A DNA stretch of 7,222 bases from Nitrospinota bacterium (lineage in GTDB: Bacteria > UBA8248 > JACPRG01). A program made the position numbers and the translations under genes. Of the stretch, positions 1 to 7,222 are shown in pieces. The notes beneath the pieces were generated by a model. The model was not told where the DNA came from and did not search any database. It worked only from the letters and a program-made list of their open reading frames with translations. Where the stretch lies: assembly GCA_030740135.1 (NCBI GenBank), contig JASLXW010000091.1, positions 1 through 7,222 of the forward strand, read 5' to 3'. Within the stretch, counting starts at the first letter, position 1. Each line of letters starts with the position of its first letter.

Positions 1-241
1 AGCGGCGTCGCCGGTTGATGAAAAAATCAGTCGGCGGCCGGGATTCCTCAGATCCCTTGCATGCAGGGCCGGCCGTTTTGGAAGGTGATGTCAGGAAAAG
101 AGCGCCCCCGGGAGCGTCTACGGGGAGACAACGGATTACAACCATGCGAAACTGTTTCCGGTTCGGGATCACCTGAAGCTGATTTACGATCTGGAGGGGG
201 GGTCTGTTGAGCCCCGCCCCGCATTCCAAAGGAGGCCCGGT
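1..241. other. left-edge region without a confident gene
   Basis: No complete gene is supported here. A plus-strand frame entering from the left edge closes at TGA 16-18 and could be the tail of an upstream gene, but only five codons are visible. In the frame of the downstream DsbA-like gene, the stretch after the TGA at 86-88 is open up to the putative Sec codon. Around 116-200 it reads like protein (for example HAKLFPVRDHLKLIYDLEGG), yet it has no ATG, GTG or TTG start before the ribosome binding site at 228-235. It may be a decayed or frameshifted gene end. I found no convincing promoter for the downstream gene. Confidence 0.4.
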
Positions 242-856
242 TTGCCCGCACCCGCGCGCTTGACCTACATCCAGTGCGTCCACTGAGCCTGGTGCTTTCT
301 GGCGACCGGGCGGTTGCACGACCTGAAGAAAACCTATCGGGACCGGCTCGAGATCCGGTACAAGACCTTCCTCCTGGCCCCCACACCGGAAGCCCGATCG
401 CTCAGCAAGGAAGAGATCCTCGGCCATTGGTCCATGGTCAAGGAACACTCGGGGGGCGAGCGGGTCAACCCCGCGCTCATGGCGACCCGCGATTTCCCCT
501 ACCCCCACTCCATGCCCGGCGCGGTGGCCATCAAGGCGGCCGCGGCCCAGGGCCCGGAGGCCGAGGCCCGCTACGTCGAGCGCATCGAGGAGGCCCACCT
601 GGTGGACTGCCTCGACATCGCCGACGACGACGTCCTCATCGGCCTCGCCCGCGGCCTCGGGCTGGACCTCCCCCGGTTCGAGGACCTCTACCGGAACACC
701 GATTTGGAACAGGCCGTCCGGCGCGACCACCAGGAAGCCTCGGAACGGGGAATCCACTCCACCCCCACCGTCGTCCTGCCCGACGGCCGCCGCGCCGTGG
801 GCGCCCAGCCCAAAGAAGTTTACGAGACCATCGTCCAGGATCTTTTGGGGAGCTGA
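242..856 (+). CDS. selenocysteine-containing DsbA/FrnE-like thiol oxidoreductase
   Basis: This is a thioredoxin-fold dithiol oxidoreductase or isomerase of the DsbA/FrnE type, 204 residues if UGA is read as selenocysteine. The start is TTG 242, six bases after AAAGGAGG (228-235). A beta strand (LTYIQ) leads into C12-V-H-U15-A-W-C18, where U15 is TGA 284-286. In the family this is the C-x-x-C redox motif (typically CPWC), so UGA sits exactly on the first, nucleophilic cysteine. The helical insertion spans roughly residues 60-150. The conserved cis-proline loop is GIHSTP (T174-P175), followed by a strand and the C-terminal helix. Homology is continuous on both sides of the UGA, and a SECIS-like hairpin follows at 302-317. 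No signal peptide is visible, so it probably acts in the cytoplasm. A conventional call would begin at TTG 314 and lose the active site. The alternative is a pseudogene with a Cys-to-stop change. The next gene begins 87 bases on. Confidence covers the family plus the Sec reading. Confidence 0.8.
302..317 (+). promoter_or_regulatory. candidate bacterial SECIS hairpin
   Basis: GCGACC (302-307) pairs perfectly with GGTTGC (312-317), one pair being G-U, around the loop GGGC (308-311). The loop begins 21 bases after the TGA at 284-286 and has G in its first two positions. As I recall, bacterial SECIS elements have a small apical loop with a G near its start, about 16-37 bases after UGA, and this hairpin fits. 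Two further pairs are possible below the stem if A318 is bulged (G301-C319, U300-G320). It would recruit SelB with Sec-tRNA to the UGA. A competing helix (287-293 with 305-311) also exists, so the fold needs checking. Confidence 0.6.
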
Positions 857-862
857 TCCGCC

Positions 863-885
863 CGAATCCACCGATTCGTGGAATC
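863..885 (+). other. alternative hairpins between dsbA-like and DUF3179 genes
   Basis: CGAATC (863-868) can pair with GATTCG (873-878) around a CACC loop. The same GATTC (873-877) can instead pair with GAATC (881-885) around GTG. The two stems exclude each other. No T-run follows, so a standard intrinsic terminator is not supported. The element could be a weak terminator, an mRNA-stability structure or chance. Confidence 0.3.
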
Positions 886-943
886 AACCGGCCATTCCGA
901 GGTTATAGAGAGAAACGCCTCGTTCCTGCCTCGGGAGACCGGA

Positions 944-1960
944 ATGATGAGAGCTTTCACGACGCTGACGCTGGCGGCGGTCCTGGGCCTGGGCGTCGGG
1001 AGCGCCGGTCCGGGCGTTGAAACCGCCTTGGCCGCCGGCGAGAAGCCGCTCTTCCCCACCTGGGGGTGGAAAACGAACTTCAAGAAGCACTCGGTTTCTT
1101 ATGAGGAGATCTTCTCCGGAGGCCCGCCGAAGGACGGCATCCCCGCCGCCGACAAGCCGAAGTTTGTGTCCCAGGAATCGGCCGACAAGTGGGTCAAAGA
1201 CATCGAGCCCGTCGTCGTCGTCGAGCACCGGGGAAAGGCCAAGGCGTATCCCCTCCAGATCCTCACCTGGCACGAGATCGTCAACGACACGCTGAACGGC
1301 CTTCCGGTGACTGTGACCTTCTGTCCGCTCTGCAACGCGGCCATCGCCTTCGACCGCAGGCTGGACGGGCGCCTGCTCGATTTCGGCACGACCGGAAAGC
1401 TCCGATACAGCGACCTCGTCATGTACGACCGGCAGACGGAATCATGGTGGCAGCAGTTCACGGGCGCGGCCATCATCGGCGACCTCACCGGCAGGAAGCT
1501 GAAGATGGTCCCGGCGGCCCTCGTGGGGTACGGCCACTTCAGGAAGTCGTATCCGGGCGCGCCGGTCCTGTCCAAAGACACCGGCCACAGGCGGCCCTAC
1601 GGCCGGAATCCCTACGTCGGCTACGACAACATCAAGGGCGTCCCCTTCCTTTTCCGCGGACCGACGGACAAGCGCCTCCCGCCGATGGAGCGCGTCGTGG
1701 CGGTGACCCTCGGCGACCGTGACAAGGCCTACCCCTACTCGGTCCTGGCGAAACGGCGCGTCGTGAATGACCGGATCGGAAGCCGGGGCGTCGTCGTCTT
1801 CCACGCCGACGGCGCCGCCTCCGCCCTGGGCGGCCCGAAGATCGCTTCGGCGAGGGACATCGGCGCCACCGGGGTGTTCGACCCGAACCTGAACGGCAGG
1901 AAGCTGACGTTCCAACCGGACCCGAAGGGCATACGCGACGTACAGACCGGAAGCCGCTAG
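944..1960 (+). CDS. DUF3179 domain exported protein, interrupted by amber codon
   Basis: This is an exported protein of the DUF3179 family, whose function is unknown. I chose ATG 944 (or 947) because GGGAG at 933-937 precedes it and a signal peptide starts there: M-M-R, a hydrophobic run of about 15 residues, then ALAAG as a probable cleavage site. The mature part has the family's hallmarks: the region around KAYPLQILTWHEIVND, the cysteine motif TFCPLCN (C127, C130), and later ATGVFDPNLNGRKLTF. The frame stops at TAG 1958-1960 after residue 338 (VQTGSR). Beyond it the same frame continues as NVLGLAVDGPLKGKKL and ends SGVYLP with TGA 2084-2086, matching the usual C-terminus, where homologues normally read TGSRW. 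The TAG therefore most likely replaces a TGG Trp codon. The product is truncated by 41 residues unless the stop is suppressed, or the base is a sequencing error. Confidence 0.85.
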   Translation: MMRAFTTLTLAAVLGLGVGSAGPGVETALAAGEKPLFPTWGWKTNFKKHSVSYEEIFSGGPPKDGIPAADKPKFVSQESADKWVKDIEPVVVVEHRGKAKAYPLQILTWHEIVNDTLNGLPVTVTFCPLCNAAIAFDRRLDGRLLDFGTTGKLRYSDLVMYDRQTESWWQQFTGAAIIGDLTGRKLKMVPAALVGYGHFRKSYPGAPVLSKDTGHRRPYGRNPYVGYDNIKGVPFLFRGPTDKRLPPMERVVAVTLGDRDKAYPYSVLAKRRVVNDRIGSRGVVVFHADGAASALGGPKIASARDIGATGVFDPNLNGRKLTFQPDPKGIRDVQTGSR

Positions 1961-2086
1961 AACGTCCTCGGTCTTGCGGTGGACGGCCCCCTGAAGGGGA
2001 AGAAGCTGAAGCCGATCCTCCACGGCAACCACTTCGCCTTCTCGTGGTTCGCGTTCAAACCGAAAAGCGGCGTCTACCTGCCCTGA
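1961..2086 (+). pseudogene. detached C-terminal segment of the DUF3179 gene
   Basis: These 41 codons directly follow the amber codon in the same frame and end at TGA 2084-2086. They encode the conserved DUF3179 tail: a glycine-rich LGLAVDGPLKGKKL segment, then an aromatic stretch HFAFSWFAFKPKSGVY similar to the family's W-F-A-x-x-x-F-x-P ending. There is no start codon or ribosome binding site of its own, so it is translated only if the TAG is read through. The intact frame would be 944-2086, 380 residues. Confidence 0.75.
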
Positions 2087-2115
2087 AACCATTCCGTCGG
2101 CGAAAGCGGACGGCC

Positions 2116-2131
2116 CCGGGCGGCGGCCCGG
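2116..2131. terminator. GC hairpin between convergent genes
   Basis: CCGGGC (2116-2121) and GCCCGG (2126-2131) form a perfect 6-bp stem around GGCG. It lies in the 46-base gap between the convergent stop codons at 2084-2086 (plus) and 2133-2135 (minus), so it could stop transcription from both sides. No T-run is present on either side, which weakens the call. Confidence 0.35.
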
Positions 2132-2132
2132 C

Positions 2133-2390
2133 TCAGCCACGCCGCGCCGGAACCCGGAACGCCAGGACGTGGCTCACCAGCAATGCGGGCGCGATGACCG
2201 TGGGAAGGAAATACGCGGGTCCCATTTGTGCGATCACTCCCAGGCGCGTTCCCTGAAACACCGCGTAGAGCAAGTCCAGCGTTCCCTCGATGTTGAACGC
2301 CCAAACGAGGGGAATCGCAAGGACAGAACCGGCCCGTAAGAGACCCAGGGCGATGAGCGCGGGGATCGCCGCGGCCGGTCGGCCCCTCAA
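2133..2390 (-). CDS. small integral membrane protein, probably N-terminally truncated
   Basis: This is an 85-residue hydrophobic protein of unknown function. The apparent start is TTG 2390-2388, whose TTGA overlaps the stop codon of the HtrA gene (TGA 2389-2387), so translation would depend on coupling; the upstream bases are pyrimidine-rich and offer no Shine-Dalgarno. A hydrophobic segment runs from about residue 6 to 30, then comes the polar-aromatic motif FNIEGTLDLLYAVFQGTR, then a second span around AYFLPTVIAPALLVSHVLAF and a basic tail. From memory, the WAFN-x-x-GTLDLLYA and AYF-x-PT motifs belong to uncharacterised membrane proteins of about 140-150 residues with more spans in front. 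The visible protein would be their C-terminal half, suggesting truncation or a deletion at the HtrA junction. It could also be a functional short version. Confidence 0.6.
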   Translation of the reverse strand: MRGRPAAAIPALIALGLLRAGSVLAIPLVWAFNIEGTLDLLYAVFQGTRLGVIAQMGPAYFLPTVIAPALLVSHVLAFRVPARRG

Positions 2391-3919
2391 GAGGAGGGGG
2401 GGGATTTTCGGGACTGCAGGGCCGGCCGCGGAGCGATTTCCAGGAGCAGGAATATCCGCTGGTCTCCGCGCTGAATGAGGAGGAGGGTCTTCTCGCCTTT
2501 CAATCCGCGAAGAATTTCCCGAAATCCCTTTTCGGACCGGACGGCCTGCAGACCGATGGAGCGGACGATGTCTCCGCGTCTCACGCCGGCCCGGTCCGCG
2601 GCGCTTCCGGGGTCCACGGCGGCGACGATCAAGCCGGCCGGGTCTTCGAGCCCCAGCCGGGACGCCATGGAGGACGAGAGCGGGCGAAGGTCCAATCCAA
2701 AGGGCGGGTGCGCCGGCCTGGCCGGTTTCGACGGACCGATCTTGGAGGCCGTCCGGGATTCCCGCAGCTCCCGGACCATCACCTGAATCACCAGGCTCTC
2801 TCCGCCGCGAAAGACCTGAAGGGTCGTGTGTGCGCCGATCCCCGCCCGAGCCAAGGCCCTTCCGAAATCCTGACTCCCCCGCAGGCGCAGACCGCCCAGG
2901 GACAGAATCACATCACCGGCCCGGAGGCCCGCCCGGCCGGCCGGGCCTCCCTCCCGGACGCGGGCGATCAGCCCCCCCCCCGCCCGGGGGAGTTTGAAGT
3001 AGCGCGCCAGGTCCGGGTCCAACTCCTGAATCGAGACGCCGATCCAACCCCGCCGGACCCTGCCGTGCGCGCGAAGGTCGGGGAGCAGGCGCTTCACCAG
3101 ATTGATGGGAATGACGAAGCCGATCCCGGGCGCGCCCGAGACAACGGCCGTGTTCACGCCGATGACCTCTCCCCGAAGGTTCATGAGCGGTCCGCCGCTG
3201 TTGCCCCTGTGGATGGGGGCGTCCGTCTGGAGGTACCCGCTGAAAATCGCGCCCTCCAGCGCCCTCCCCTTCGCGCTCAGGATTCCGGCCGTCACGGTCT
3301 CCTCCAGGCCGAAGGGGTTTCCGATCGCCAGGACCCATTCGCCCACGCGGGCCCCGGCGGAATCACCGAGCCGCGCGCCCGGCAGCGGTCTTTCCGGGCG
3401 AATCCGCAGGAGGGCCAAGTCCGTCAGGGGGTCCGCGCCGACCAGGCTCGCCTCCCGCCACTCGCCTCCGTAGAGCCTGACCCGGATCTCGGCGGCGCCC
3501 TCGACGACGTGGTGGTTCGTCAAGATCTCTCCCCGGGCGCCGATGAGGAAGCCCGTCCCGGACCCCCCGGAAGGGGGATTTTCGGCCGCCGCCGTCTCGT
3601 CCGGCCCCGCCCCGCCCGGATTTTCAAACATCCGGTCGAAGAACTCTTTCAGGTCCGTTGACAGCCCGCCCGTCGGCCCGCCCCTTCTCGCCCGGACGCC
3701 CGGGATTCGGGCGTTGACGTGCACCACCGAGGGCCTGAGCCTGTTGGCCAACCCGGCGAAATCGGGCGGGGACGCCCGCCGCGCCCATCCTTCCGCGGGA
3801 GGGGAGCCTTTGCTCGCGCGCGTCGGCGAGAGAGGCGACGCGGCGCATGACCCGAGCATCCAGCCCGCAAGCGCGAACGCCGCCCACCGGACGGCGTTAG
3901 ACGCCGGTCGATTCGGCAT
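2387..3919 (-). CDS. lipoprotein HtrA/DegP-like serine protease with two PDZ domains
   Basis: This is a trypsin-like periplasmic quality-control protease of the HtrA (DegP/DegQ, S1C) family, 510 residues. The start is ATG 3919, chosen over an upstream in-frame ATG because AGGGAGG (3935-3929) sits nine bases before it and the product then opens with a lipoprotein signal: R11, a hydrophobic run, and lipobox L-G-S-C with C25 as the lipidated residue. The protease domain covers about residues 55-275 with an intact triad: H137 in TNHHVV, D167 in DPLTDLALL and S241 in GNSGGPL. PDZ1 lies at about 285-375 (start RRGWIGV) and PDZ2 at about 415-495 (FGLDLRPLS, GSAADRAGVRRGD). A serine/alanine/proline-rich linker follows the lipid anchor, and a charged glycine-rich loop (about 76-120) precedes the GGSGTGF strand. 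Membrane tethering by lipid rather than by a transmembrane helix is less usual for the family. The stop overlaps the start of the small membrane protein downstream. Exact substrate and ortholog (DegP, DegQ or DegS) cannot be told. Confidence 0.95.
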   Translation of the reverse strand: MPNRPASNAVRWAAFALAGWMLGSCAASPLSPTRASKGSPPAEGWARRASPPDFAGLANRLRPSVVHVNARIPGVRARRGGPTGGLSTDLKEFFDRMFENPGGAGPDETAAAENPPSGGSGTGFLIGARGEILTNHHVVEGAAEIRVRLYGGEWREASLVGADPLTDLALLRIRPERPLPGARLGDSAGARVGEWVLAIGNPFGLEETVTAGILSAKGRALEGAIFSGYLQTDAPIHRGNSGGPLMNLRGEVIGVNTAVVSGAPGIGFVIPINLVKRLLPDLRAHGRVRRGWIGVSIQELDPDLARYFKLPRAGGGLIARVREGGPAGRAGLRAGDVILSLGGLRLRGSQDFGRALARAGIGAHTTLQVFRGGESLVIQVMVRELRESRTASKIGPSKPARPAHPPFGLDLRPLSSSMASRLGLEDPAGLIVAAVDPGSAADRAGVRRGDIVRSIGLQAVRSEKGFREILRGLKGEKTLLLIQRGDQRIFLLLEIAPRPALQSRKSPPSS

Positions 3920-4015
3920 CACCGAGAACCTCCCTCTTCGCCGCAGGCGCTCCGCCTTCAGCCGGGGATGCGGATCGTCCGCCGGACCCCGCACCGGCCA
4001 TCCCGCCCCCGGCCC

Positions 4016-4054
4016 AAAAGGAAAAGCCCGGGGGCGCCTGCGGGCCCTCGGGCT
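4016..4054 (-). terminator. intrinsic terminator of the ferredoxin gene
   Basis: Read on the minus strand, AGCCCG (4054-4049) pairs with CGGGCT (4030-4025). After one A-C mismatch the helix continues with GGG against CCC around a loop of about ten bases. The stem is followed by TTTTCCTTTT (4025-4016). It lies 67 bases after the ferredoxin stop and about 97 before the HtrA start, so the HtrA gene should be transcribed mostly from its own promoter. I could not identify that promoter. Confidence 0.8.
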
Positions 4055-4120
4055 TGCGTTGAACCCTCGAAACATCCCCACGCGGATGCTTCATCCCATC
4101 GCGGCCGGGCCGCAACGGAA

Positions 4121-4576
4121 TCAGGTGAAGTGGCCGAGCACGAATTCCAGCTTCGTCTTCCCCTCCGGAAGGGGAACGACAATCGCCTCTTTGTCGCAGA
4201 ACGCTTCGCACAGTTGGCAACCTACACACTCCTTCTCGTGCACCCTGGCCACCGCCTGGACGTCTTCCCAGTCCTCGGCGTCTTCGAGGCTGATGCAATC
4301 GAACGGACAGATCTCGACACAGTAGTTGCAACCGTTGCACAACTCCTCGATCACAACCGCCTTGGGCATCTCTTTGGGCCGGATTCGGGGGATGACCTTC
4401 CCGTTTTCGTCCAGGATGCACTCCACCGGGCAATGGCGGCCGCAGACATCGCAGTCGATGCACAAACCCGGGTCGATGACGTACAATTGGTCCCGTCGGC
4501 CGGAAATCGCGTCCGTCGGGCACTTGATCTCACAGATGCTGCAACCGATACACGTATCCGCGATGAAGTGAGCCAT
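4121..4576 (-). CDS. four-cluster [4Fe-4S] polyferredoxin
   Basis: This is a 151-residue cytoplasmic electron-transfer protein made of two bacterial 2[4Fe-4S] ferredoxin domains in tandem. ATG 4576 was preferred over an in-frame ATG at 4630: the latter lies within the promoter-proximal leader, and ferredoxins typically begin M-A-x-x-I just before the first motif. GGAAGG (4587-4582) precedes it. All sixteen ligands are present as four C-x2-C-x2-C-x3-C motifs: C9/12/15/19, C39/42/45/49, C80/83/86/90 and C117/120/123/127. The first three end in C-P as usual; the fourth has C127-D. A linker of about 25 residues (about 54-79) separates the domains. C53 and C94 are extra cysteines. The gene stands alone with its own promoter and terminator, so its redox partner is not indicated by neighbours. 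Low-potential roles such as serving an oxidoreductase or a radical-SAM enzyme are guesses. Confidence 0.95.
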   Translation of the reverse strand: MAHFIADTCIGCSICEIKCPTDAISGRRDQLYVIDPGLCIDCDVCGRHCPVECILDENGKVIPRIRPKEMPKAVVIEELCNGCNYCVEICPFDCISLEDAEDWEDVQAVARVHEKECVGCQLCEAFCDKEAIVVPLPEGKTKLEFVLGHFT

Positions 4577-4650
4577 TTGAACCTTCCGATTTTTCGCGCG
4601 TGGTTCGGGCGTAGGCGCTCCACACCGCACCTTTAACCCCCATTGATTCG

Positions 4651-4679
4651 AGTATAGGAAGGGGCGGCTGGGCTGTCAA
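4651..4679 (-). promoter_or_regulatory. sigma70-type promoter of the ferredoxin gene
   Basis: On the minus strand TTGACA (4679-4674) is followed, after exactly 17 bases, by TATACT (4656-4651). This is a near-consensus housekeeping promoter. Transcription would start near 4644, giving a leader of about 68 bases before ATG 4576. It predicts strong constitutive ferredoxin expression. It faces away from the plus-strand promoter at 4693-4722. Confidence 0.85.
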
Positions 4680-4692
4680 CGCGGATTTCGAC

Positions 4693-4722
4693 TTGACCCG
4701 CTCCCGTCCGCCGGTCCATATT
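4693..4722 (+). promoter_or_regulatory. sigma70-type promoter of the small membrane protein operon
   Basis: TTGACC (4693-4698) and CATATT (4717-4722) are separated by 18 bases. The predicted start near 4729 leaves about 26 bases before ATG 4755, including GGAGGA at 4739-4744. Match to consensus is moderate. The divergent ferredoxin promoter lies 14 bases away, so a shared regulator could act on both, though I see no clear operator. Confidence 0.55.
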
Positions 4723-4754
4723 GAAAGGGTCTTATCACGGAGGAATGAGACAAG

Positions 4755-4922
4755 ATGGAACAATTTCTGGAAATCTTCCTGAAGCCGGATAACATCCCGA
4801 TTTCCGGCATGTTGCTGATCGTGATCTTCACGGTTTGGCTCTCCCTCAAACAGGCCTTCGCGAACGACAGGCTCATCAAGGAAGGCAAGAAAGACAAAAT
4901 CTACGACGACATGATGAAATAG
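4755..4922 (+). CDS. 55-residue single-span membrane protein
   Basis: This is a small protein of unknown function, too short for many gene callers. ATG 4755 follows GGAGGA (4739-4744) by ten bases, and the stop is TAG 4920-4922. The N-terminal 17 residues (MEQFLEIFLKPDNIPIS) are amphipathic. A single transmembrane helix spans about residues 18-35 (GMLLIVIFTVWLSLKQAF). A charged tail rich in Lys, Asp and Glu (NDRLIKEGKKDKIYDDMM) follows and should face the cytoplasm. The clean amphipathic-span-charged layout, its own promoter and good ribosome binding site support a real gene. Such miniproteins often accompany membrane respiratory complexes, but no partner subunit is visible here. An ATG at 4745 opens only a 15-codon frame and is rejected as the start. 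The Mrr-like gene starts 101 bases downstream, probably in the same transcript. Confidence 0.8.
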   Translation: MEQFLEIFLKPDNIPISGMLLIVIFTVWLSLKQAFANDRLIKEGKKDKIYDDMMK

Positions 4923-5023
4923 GGAAAAACTTCCGCTCCGGCGTCATCCCCGCTCTCGAGACGCACCCAAACTGTCCATCCGGAACCGGGCCGCTGTATC
5001 GGAACCGGCGGCGGAAAGCGCCC

Positions 5024-5569
5024 ATGCTCGTCATCATCGCAGTCTCCACGATTCTCGGTTTCATCCTGATCTTTCTGCTGAAGCGCTCCTCCACACCCAT
5101 CGCGATGGAAGAGGCCTATTACCGGCAGGACGCCCCCGGGACGGCGGCTTTGGGAGAGATGGTTCCGGAAGAGTTCAAGGAAATTTGCGTGGACCTCGTG
5201 GAGGCCGTGGGGCTGCGGGTCCAATCGGTCGAGTCTGAAGAGCCGGGCGTCATCGACATCACGGCGTTCTACGACCACCCCGTCCTGGGCGGGACCTACC
5301 TGGTCAACGGCCTTCTGTCCCCCACGGACCAAGTCGTGGACTCGGCCCCGGTCATCGGCCTCAGCAGCGCCGTCCACCAGGAGCGGGCCATGAAAGGGAT
5401 CTTCATCACCACCGGGTTCTTCTCGCAGGAGGTGGACAAGATTGCGGAAGGGGCGCCCGTTGAATTGATCAACAGGGATCGCCTCGCCGAACTCCTGGAA
5501 GAGTATGGAATCGCAAGAATGGAAAAACGGCTAAGCGAGCAGAATCCAGGAGAACACCGCGAGGAGTAA
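5024..5569 (+). CDS. membrane-anchored Mrr-like (restriction endonuclease fold) protein
   Basis: This 181-residue protein opens with one transmembrane helix (about residues 2-20, MLVIIAVSTILGFILIFLLK), followed by a soluble domain. ATG 5024 was chosen because the helix then sits at the N-terminus and GGAAAG (5013-5018) precedes it; the frame is open further upstream but reads as low-complexity basic sequence there. The soluble domain resembles the Mrr_cat group of the PD-(D/E)xK fold: a helix with FKEICVDLVEAVGL, D78 in VIDIT, strand GGTYLVNGLLSP, helix QERAMKG, strand IFITTGFFS, then EGAPVELINRDRLAELLEEYGI. Active Mrr enzymes carry a Q/E-x-K motif in the strand after the catalytic Asp; here that place reads N95-G96-L97, so nuclease activity is doubtful. 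A membrane-tethered, possibly inactive fold suggests a binding or scaffolding role, which is inference. The last 39 bases overlap an antisense small gene. Confidence 0.8.
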   Translation: MLVIIAVSTILGFILIFLLKRSSTPIAMEEAYYRQDAPGTAALGEMVPEEFKEICVDLVEAVGLRVQSVESEEPGVIDITAFYDHPVLGGTYLVNGLLSPTDQVVDSAPVIGLSSAVHQERAMKGIFITTGFFSQEVDKIAEGAPVELINRDRLAELLEEYGIARMEKRLSEQNPGEHREE

Positions 5570-5662
5570 CGTCAGGCCGAAACCCATCCGGACGGCGCAG
5601 CCGTGCCACCACAGATGCCGCCGTTGTGATTCTTCGGGGTCGCCTTCAGCAAAATGACGCAT
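5531..5662 (-). CDS. 43-residue membrane miniprotein, antisense overlap
   Basis: This is an unrecognised small protein on the minus strand. ATG 5662 is preceded by AAGGAG (5673-5668) at a five-base spacing, the best ribosome binding site in this intergenic region, and the frame ends at TAG 5533-5531. The first half is polar and rich in His, Arg and Trp (MRHFAEGDPEES, then RRHLWWHG). The second half is one hydrophobic span (MGFGLTLLLAVFSWILLA) reaching the C-terminus, so it would be a tail-anchored or single-span inner-membrane protein. Its 3' end overlaps the last 39 bases of the Mrr-like gene in convergent orientation. A possible promoter is weak: TTGACA on the minus strand at 5760-5755 lacks a well-spaced -10. 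A GGGGC/GCCCC hairpin (5703-5718) lies in its leader. It could be chance, but the ribosome site plus a clean span argue for a gene. Confidence 0.55.
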   Translation of the reverse strand: MRHFAEGDPEESQRRHLWWHGCAVRMGFGLTLLLAVFSWILLA

Positions 5663-5838
5663 GTCGGCTCCTTAAGACAAATATCCATTCCGATCCGCGC
5701 AAGGGGCCATGGAGCCCCGAGCCAGGAGAATAAGGAAACAGATGCGCACCGCCCTGTCAAGACCATCGGATCCGGGGAGCGGCCGGGGCGGGCGGCATCG
5801 ACATTTCCGCCCCATGAGACCGGACGCCGGAGGACTGC

Positions 5839-6834
5839 ATGAAGCTCGCCATCTTTGAAACCTTGCCGCAAGACCCCATCGGCCCCCGTCTGGGCCTCGT
5901 CCTGGATGACGGGTCGGTGATCGACATGAACCTCGCGCTGACGATCGCCGAGGCCGGCCGGCGCGACCCCGGGGCCATGGCGTTGCGGACCAAATGGGCC
6001 CGGGACGGCGTCCTCGGATTCATCCGGGGCGGGCGGGAGTCCGACGACGCCGCCGACCGGGTGATCGATCTCGTCCAATCCAGCCGGGAGAAAGGCGAGA
6101 CGCTGAAAGGCGCCAAGGTCACCGCCGTCGTTCACCCGGCGGGCGGCCTGCGGTTTCACGCCCCCCTCCCCCGGCCGGGCAAGTTCGTCGCCATCGGCTT
6201 CAATTTCAGCGACCACATCGAGGAAAATCCGAACAAGCCCAGGGCCCGCTACCCCATGGGCTTCATTCAGGTCCCCCGGGCCATCACCGGGCACGAGGCC
6301 CCCATCGTCCACCCCCGGCACACGAAGGAGGTGGATTACGAGGTGGAGATCGCCATCGTCATCGGCAAGGGCGGGAAGGACATCCCGGCGGAGCGGGCGA
6401 TGGAGCACGTCGCGGGCTACACCATCTTCAACGACATCAGCGCCCGCGACCTCCAGCGCGGCGAGATGAAATTCGGCATGCTCTTCATGGGGAAAAACTT
6501 CGACGGATTCGCGCCGATGGGACCGCACCTGGTCACGGCGGATGAAGTCCCCGACCCCGACGACTTGACGCTCCAGACCTGGGTCAACGACGAGCCCGAG
6601 CCCCGGCAGGACGGCAACACGCGGGACATGATCTTCAAAATGCCGGAGTTGATCTCCCACTGGTCGAAGATGACGCTCGAGCCCGGGGACATCATCTCGA
6701 CGGGCACCCCGTCCGGCGTGGCGACGTTCCGCGAACCCCCCGAGGATTATTATCTCAAACCCGGCGATACGGTGCGCTGCGTCGTGAGCCGTCTCGGCGA
6801 GCTCCGCAACCCCATCGTAGCGGACACGGCGTAA
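5839..6834 (+). CDS. fumarylacetoacetate hydrolase (FAH) family enzyme
   Basis: This is a 331-residue metal-dependent hydrolase or decarboxylase of the FAH superfamily, which cleaves C-C bonds in or otherwise acts on beta-keto-acid-like compounds, often in aromatic catabolism. ATG 5839 follows GGAGG (5829-5833) by five bases. An N-terminal domain of about 110 residues precedes the catalytic fold. Signature elements appear in order: FVAIGFNFSDHIEE (substrate side), E168-x-E170 in VDYEVEIAIVIGK and D199 in FNDISARD (metal ligands by family comparison), MGKNFDGFAPMGP, a late segment EPGDIISTGTPSGV, and PGDTVRC near the end. These suit acylpyruvase, 2-hydroxyhepta-2,4-diene-1,7-dioate isomerase or related members. 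The exact substrate cannot be read, and no aromatic-degradation genes are nearby. Length is normal and no disruption is seen. It is probably monocistronic: upstream lies 176 bases of leader with no clear promoter. Confidence 0.93.
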   Translation: MKLAIFETLPQDPIGPRLGLVLDDGSVIDMNLALTIAEAGRRDPGAMALRTKWARDGVLGFIRGGRESDDAADRVIDLVQSSREKGETLKGAKVTAVVHPAGGLRFHAPLPRPGKFVAIGFNFSDHIEENPNKPRARYPMGFIQVPRAITGHEAPIVHPRHTKEVDYEVEIAIVIGKGGKDIPAERAMEHVAGYTIFNDISARDLQRGEMKFGMLFMGKNFDGFAPMGPHLVTADEVPDPDDLTLQTWVNDEPEPRQDGNTRDMIFKMPELISHWSKMTLEPGDIISTGTPSGVATFREPPEDYYLKPGDTVRCVVSRLGELRNPIVADTA

Positions 6835-6906
6835 ACCGAACAGCGCGGCGGACGATCACCCGGCTTCGGAACCCGCGTCTCAGATGTCCTGAACCCACAT
6901 CCTCCC
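6835..6906. other. short intergenic gap after the FAH gene
   Basis: About 70 bases lie between the FAH stop and the next promoter. Several short GC-rich inverted segments occur, but none is followed by a T-run. No gene or clear terminator is seen. Confidence 0.5.
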
Positions 6907-6934
6907 TTGATTCCCGCCGGATTGGGTATATACT
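6907..6934 (+). promoter_or_regulatory. sigma70-type promoter of the moaA leader
   Basis: TTGATT (6907-6912) and TATACT (6929-6934) are separated by 16 bases. The predicted start is near 6941, about 30 bases before the P1 stem of the riboswitch. The local AT-richness stands out in this GC-rich window. Confidence 0.65.
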
Positions 6935-6970
6935 TGAACTTGCAGGATAAATGAATCACGGACCTGAATC

Positions 6971-7073
6971 CGTTCTCCGAGCCTCCGGGTGCTTGGACGC
7001 AAAAGCCATGACCCGCGGGCCGATAGGGTTGGGGGGGAGACCCGCCGGCCTCCCGTGCTTGGAAAGGAGAACG
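6971..7073 (+). ncRNA. Moco (molybdenum cofactor) riboswitch aptamer
   Basis: This leader RNA domain is closed by a perfect 8-bp P1 stem, CGTTCTCC (6971-6978) with GGAGAACG (7066-7073). Inside, CGGGT (6986-6990) pairs with ACCCG (7011-7015) and, above an internal loop, TGG with CCA. A second arm has GGCC (7018-7021) with GGCC (7047-7050) and GGGT (7026-7029) with ACCC (7040-7043). The purine segment GGAAAGGAG runs into the 3' P1 strand. GTGCTTGGA occurs twice (6989-6997 and 7055-7063). Conserved-looking unpaired tracts, the position between a promoter and a terminator, and moaA immediately downstream all fit the Moco RNA motif, which represses cofactor biosynthesis when ligand is plentiful. 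Assignment to Moco rather than a tungsten-cofactor variant or another class rests on context and my memory of the motif. Confidence 0.82.
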
Positions 7074-7130
7074 CGGGCCTCGGCGTAGAATCCTTCCGGG
7101 CCGGCGTTCCCTTGTGAACGCCGGCCTTTT
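7069..7130 (+). terminator. intrinsic terminator with antiterminator strand, before moaA
   Basis: GGCCGGCGTTC (7099-7109) pairs perfectly over 11 bp with GAACGCCGGCC (7116-7126) around CCTTGT, followed by TTTTCTT (7127-7133). The upstream GAACGCGGGCC (7069-7079) matches the terminator's 3' arm at 10 of 11 bases and overlaps the 3' strand of P1. It can therefore pair with 7099-7109 and block the terminator when P1 is not formed. Folding of P1 would free the terminator and switch transcription off. Confidence 0.85.
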
Positions 7131-7169
7131 CTTGTGAAAGGCGGTTCACCCGTCCGGAGGAAATTCATC

Positions 7170-7222
7170 CTGGCCCTTTACGACACATACGGCCGGCCGC
7201 ACAACGATCTGCGGATCTCCGT
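7170..7222 (+). CDS. moaA: GTP 3',8-cyclase MoaA, 5' end only
   Basis: This is the beginning of the radical-SAM enzyme that makes the first intermediate of molybdenum cofactor synthesis, cut off by the window edge. The visible residues, ALYDTYGRPHNDLRISV, match the conserved MoaA N-terminus (D-x-[YF]-G-R-x-x-x-x-LRIS) that precedes the CxxxCxxC cluster motif, which is not yet reached. GGAGG at 7156-7160 points to a start at 7167-7170; in this frame that is CTG 7170 (spacing nine) or ATC 7167, both non-standard. An in-frame GTG at 7134 would add twelve residues but would place the ribosome binding site inside the gene and overlap the terminator end. The leader carries the riboswitch and terminator described above, so expression should follow Moco level. 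The start is uncertain; the identity is fairly sure for so short a fragment. Confidence 0.82.
   Translation, partial: MALYDTYGRPHNDLRIS

Follow-up and report, generated by a model that had tools for sequence, protein, structure and literature searches.

DsbA-like selenoproteins with selenocysteine (Sec) in a UxxC active site are already catalogued. In the passages of the literature covered here, they have been in print since 2005, when nine such sequences, assigned to COG2761, were reported from the Sargasso Sea (PMC1088965). DsbA-like selenoproteins were listed with 4 for genomes in 2006 (PMC1794560), and the Global Ocean Sampling set contained 63 sequences of a UxxC selenoprotein named 'DsbA 1' (PMC2398784). 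A 2016 source lists them with 41 and 45 (PMC5029168), and a 2026 inventory includes 'DsbA-like protein form 1', a UxxC protein of Pfam family PF01323 (NIP15863.1; PMC13188914). The gene described here, at positions 242..856 of the forward strand of a 7,222-nucleotide stretch of Nitrospinota bacterium DNA (contig JASLXW010000091.1, positions 1 to 7,222; hereafter the window), is a well-supported further example of this kind, from an uncultured bacterium of a little-studied group. An earlier reading of the window from its letters alone (the sequence-only reading) had placed Sec-containing DsbA-like proteins mainly in metagenomes and sulfate reducers; the kind is not new, since UxxC forms have been described from several sources (PMC1088965, PMC2398784, PMC13188914). 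For the Nitrospinota, a limited literature search found no paper on selenoproteins, and a sponge-symbiont study reports, in the part covered, that the majority of its symbiont bins, which belong to various phyla, have SelA and SelB (PMC5649159).

The gene begins with a TTG codon (242-244), contains an internal TGA at residue 15 (284-286) and terminates at TGA 854-856, all three in one frame, and encodes 204 amino acids when the internal TGA is read as Sec. The translation across this codon is MPAPARLTYIQCVH[UGA]AWCFLATGRLHDLKK..., and a longer stretch of it past residue U15 reads MPAPARLTYIQCVH-U-AWCFLATGRLHDLKKTY.... The Shine-Dalgarno heptamer AAGGAGG (229..235) is situated six nucleotides upstream of the TTG. 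The window contains two such heptamers against 1.18 expected, and at least two were found in 72 of 200 shuffles; the count is unremarkable, and therefore only the position of the heptamer is informative. Coding character, as judged by G or C at third codon positions, spans the TGA: 13 of 14 codons carry it before the TGA (242-283), compared with 8 of 14 in each of the other frames, as do 21 of 24 over 242-313 (13 and 15 of 24 in the other two) and 169 of the 189 codons after it. The sequence-only reading had the coordinates, TTG start, ribosome-binding site and place of the UGA correct, and it foresaw that automatic annotation would lose the active site. The annotated protein (P0003; 180 residues, 314..856, forward strand) indeed lacks the first strand of the fold and both active-site residues.

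With read-through, residues 14-196 score 62.8 bits against PF01323 (DSBA; curated cut-off 25.6), as opposed to 46.3 bits for the protein starting at TTG 314, from which the first 24 residues are removed. Together with the third-position composition and the modelled fold, these scores agree with the earlier claim of coding similarity on both sides of the UGA. Homologs were gathered by a first protein search (14 matches) and a profile search (431 matches, of which 120 are listed); 119 of those listed were aligned, including P0003, the window's own annotated protein, and excluding P0011, which is frameshifted. All 62 full-length homologs have Cys at both active-site positions, with at least ten residues before the first Cys. 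The TGA aligns with this first Cys of the family CxxC in 62 of 62, so the alignment called for by the sequence-only reading places the UGA on the nucleophilic cysteine, as it had proposed, while Cys18 (TGC, 293..295) is the other active-site residue, the C of UxxC. The cis-Pro loop is likewise recognizable by sequence at Thr174-Pro175 (761..766), and its supposed integrity is borne out by Pro175, which is invariant across an alignment of 60 rows. The structure model shows a thioredoxin fold that carries a helical insertion; in it, strand 1 comprises residues 5-11 and U15-A-W-C18 is found at the start of helix 1 (residues 16-35). Sequence, homologs, tree and structure model thus all point to a DsbA/FrnE-like protein whose N-terminal, nucleophilic active-site residue is specified by UGA.

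The annotated starts of the homologs carry this argument beyond the window. Fifty-seven of the 119 aligned homologs, P0003 among them, start past the active-site position, at window residues 16-45, and the other 62 are full length. The first residues of the truncated proteins are M (34), V (18) or L (5), as expected of called start codons, and four relatives start V/M-WCFLAS, immediately after the place of Sec. Gene finders leave such a pattern where residue 15 is occupied by a stop codon. The tree, a quick IQ-TREE reconstruction with several long branches and a midpoint root, was built only from columns at or after window residue 45, and hence excludes the columns of the trait itself. On this tree the truncated or full-length label changes 10 times, against approximately 40 times for shuffled labels, with none of 500 shuffles as low. 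A branch with a Shimodaira-Hasegawa approximate likelihood ratio (SH-aLRT) value of 96 has 34 of 34 rows truncated on the window's side; these are the window counted twice (as P0003 and as its own frame, labelled truncated by the analyst) and 32 others. Close relatives P0005 and P0006 are named as metagenome-assembled genomes (MAGs) of Nitrospinota bacterium. Moreover, truncated relatives retain the downstream frame over a range of identities from 36% to 92%. On these protein comparisons, the stop looks conserved and lineage-wide rather than a random lesion; the prospect of a random stop with downstream decay, which the sequence-only reading had named as its refutation, was thereby checked indirectly, and the outcome favours Sec. 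The loss of N-termini is no general habit of the database either, since a control search of the same database with the single sequence of the adjoining DUF3179 protein (8000 matches, 120 listed) found 119 of the 120 listed relatives starting within query residues 1-9, and one at residue 22.

In the tree, additional truncated groups and isolated truncated rows lie among the Cys forms. P0057 (Thermomicrobiaceae), together with P0060, P0076, P0085 and P0113, probably represents a further Sec-DsbA group outside the window's clade, and ten rows including P0022, P0024, P0030 and P0034 probably another; both sets are annotated from after the active site.

The gene very probably encodes a DsbA/FrnE-like thiol-disulfide oxidoreductase in which the N-terminal active-site Cys is replaced by Sec (U15-A-W-C18). 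Translation would start at TTG 242, and UGA 284-286 would be decoded by SelB and tRNA-Sec, with a hairpin just downstream serving as the selenocysteine insertion sequence (SECIS), to give the full 204 residues, for which the model predicts a thioredoxin fold bearing a helical insertion. Sec15, heading helix 1, would attack the substrate disulfide, and Cys18 would then resolve the mixed selenenyl sulfide, while Pro175, opposite Sec15, would shape the substrate site. A cytosolic role like that of FrnE and DsbM is presumed, as strand 1 already starts at residue 5 and a signal peptide would probably not fit in front of it. FrnE is presumably the family denoted COG2761. No tRNA gene is present in the 7,222-nucleotide window.

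Several observations count against this interpretation. We infer the conserved UGA of the relatives from annotated protein starts, and at least one truncated row, P0093, is identical to full-length P0041 over the compared columns, while lone truncated rows, such as P0028, P0050, P0058, P0081 and P0114, occur among full-length ones. Truncation is therefore not always caused by UGA, and some cases are artefacts. Published criteria for bacterial SECIS elements specify a loop of 3-9 nucleotides with G in the first two places, located 16-37 nucleotides after the UGA, and a folding energy of at most -7.5 kcal/mol (PMC13188914, as given in the part covered). A candidate hairpin at 300..320, forward strand, has the apical loop GGGC (308-311), 21 nucleotides after the TGA, and -7.9 kcal/mol. 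Among 318 background positions of the window, however, 37% reach -7.5 and 35% reach -7.9 kcal/mol, and a more stable predicted hairpin directly after the TGA (287..311, forward strand) competes with it, its loop UUCU lying 10 nucleotides after the UGA and lacking G. The candidate is compatible with Sec decoding but is no evidence for it, and the SECIS was rejected as a decisive test, the background passing too often. Finally, the DUF3179 gene carries an in-frame TAG (1958-1960) at a column that holds Trp in all 120 listed homologs. This TAG, which is no recoding site, is either a nonsense change private to the window or an error of assembly, and the window's contig can consequently carry such a lesion or error.

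It is for this reason that comparison with relatives matters for the UGA of the dsbA-like gene, which could likewise be a private nonsense mutation, or a sequencing or assembly error, in an ordinary Cys-type dsbA. The TAG next door lends this explanation some substance. A private lesion would nevertheless leave the relatives full length, as it does in DUF3179, whereas all nine other in-frame close or intermediate relatives (P0004-P0010, P0012 and P0013) start past the same point, as does every row of the tree on the window's side of the supported branch. P0011, 94% identical over its match, reads ...RPLSLVLS... there in its shifted frame, which fits a TGA at the site without proving one. On balance, a private lesion is very unlikely.

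The case for a true start downstream of the TGA, at TTG 314 or similar, with the upstream stretch untranslated and the subfamily devoid of its active site, is slimmer still. Gene finders do report such starts for the truncated rows, and the downstream frame alone reaches the 46.3 bits noted above. Such a start, however, would deprive an otherwise conserved fold, with its invariant Pro175, of strand 1, both active-site residues and half of helix 1. It would also leave the active-site AWC persisting in a supposedly untranslated stretch; four relatives retain WCFLAS at the very beginning of their sequences, and it is at the upstream start that a ribosome-binding site and codon bias are seen. That the annotated starts range over residues 16-45 is as expected if none is true. 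Least probable of all, a changed code or plain readthrough that makes UGA another amino acid (Trp or Cys) has nothing specific in its favour, the frame being open with TGA as any residue, and was rejected because TGA and TGG are used normally nearby: the dsbA-like and DUF3179 genes both terminate with TGA, Trp is encoded by TGG two codons past the UGA, and the UGA aligns with Cys, never Trp, in every full-length homolog.

A second Cys distinguishes the Sec-containing active site of the window gene. Cys12 (TGC, 275..277) is at position -3 relative to Sec, where 62 of 62 full-length homologs and three Cys-type homologs encoded on plasmids have Asp. The resulting CxxUxxC form, thought unusual in the sequence-only reading, is there in the window's letters; as a trait it is that of one sequence, to which P0011 adds slight weight. 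Over the site, this protein of 233 residues follows the neighbouring frame, reading ...DLHPVRPLSLVLSGNRA, before it joins the dsbA frame; the window DNA in that same frame gives ...DLHPVRPLSLVLSGDRA. The comparison is consistent with a T-N-C codon (Phe, Ser, Tyr or Cys, but not Asp) at the Cys12 place, and is no proof of it. From this single sequence, Cys12 could be proposed to pair with Sec15 as a selenenyl sulfide, instead of or in competition with Cys18. That a whole DsbA/FrnE lineage has both fixed Sec clade-wide and adopted a C-x-x-U-x-x-C active site working as a three-residue redox switch is a speculative and rather doubtful extension. No such switch is described for the DsbA/FrnE family in the literature passages covered.

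The DUF3179 gene (944..2086, forward strand) is probably a conserved neighbour. In three relatives, the dsbA-like and DUF3179 proteins are found on contigs of equal size (P0005/P0134, 3498; P0006/P0133, 9178; P0007/P0132, 2105), an indication that the pairing is conserved. The 2026 inventory includes DUF3179, with a UxxC/T site, among the selenoprotein families (PMC13188914, in part), so that published selenoproteins exist in both families, but the window's protein and its 120 listed homologs have the Cys form CPLC. Elsewhere in the window are a ferredoxin with several 4Fe-4S motifs (4121-4576, reverse strand) and, on the forward strand, a 55-residue protein matched by neither Pfam nor NCBIfam (4755-4919), a protein with an Mrr_cat restriction-endonuclease-like domain (5024-5566) and a molybdenum/tungsten cofactor (Moco) riboswitch (RF01055, 6963-7085, 51.9 bits). 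Right after the riboswitch, an open reading frame (ORF) on the forward strand (approximately 7156-7222; ...KFILALYDTYGRPHNDLRIS) is cut by the window end and appears to resemble the start of MoaA. GGAGG lies upstream of it, with no ATG, GTG or TTG between this and the conserved part, which is a non-standard start or an error.

Wider searches were also made. Scanning genome contigs by exact peptide patterns found no close relative, and its one candidate (L001) was rejected as a chance match of 14 residues that lies in a different frame of an RHS-like ORF from a Nitrospira MAG; six SelB matches in that MAG, none above the family cut-off, concern a different organism and have no bearing on the window. 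Among 295 genomes of that MAG's phylum, 185 had matches, the best at 62.6 bits against more than 250 bits for the window's clade, and the listed rows include one with an internal TGA (L020) and one with an internal TAG. Viral contigs scanned with two alignments yielded no relative, and the phage (5) and plasmid (92) records found were all below 60% identity.

Because gene finders strip this subfamily of its entire active site, protein databases contain dozens of DsbA-type records that seem catalytically inactive (56 of the other 118 rows examined, some perhaps artefacts). Once the UGA is recognized, these records regain a function on paper, and the bacteria that carry them, including the Nitrospinota-labelled P0005 and P0006, become likely selenium users; the clade also provides material for the question of why Sec persists when sister clades have Cys. 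The gain is modest, since the protein kind is already known.

Among known systems, the published UxxC DsbA-like selenoproteins, compared by description only, share with the window gene the Pfam family, the UxxC motif and Sec at the first active-site position; the extra Cys at -3 is not mentioned in the passages covered. NCBIfam NF041057, the Rcas_1661 thioredoxin-like (seleno)lipoprotein (DsbG-like), is also a UxxC family, but matches only weakly (31.4 bits against a cut-off of 190, residues 124-199), and membership was rejected. By structural alignment, Deinococcus radiodurans FrnE (5cnw, 5coh, 5xwh), YjbH (6ghb), DsbM (5hfg) and a putative disulfide isomerase (2in3) are 20-23% identical, with UGA at the first active-site position being the feature of the window gene. 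The three plasmid comparators, taken from 9 plasmid records, are the Cys-type DsbA of Methylobacterium nodulans pMNOD02, Vibrio coralliilyticus p337 and the Ruegeria sp. TM1040 megaplasmid, which are homologous and 43-47% identical to truncated P0075. Their motif, HD[V/A][V/I]CGWC, has Cys in place of the window's UGA and Asp at -3 where the window has Cys12.
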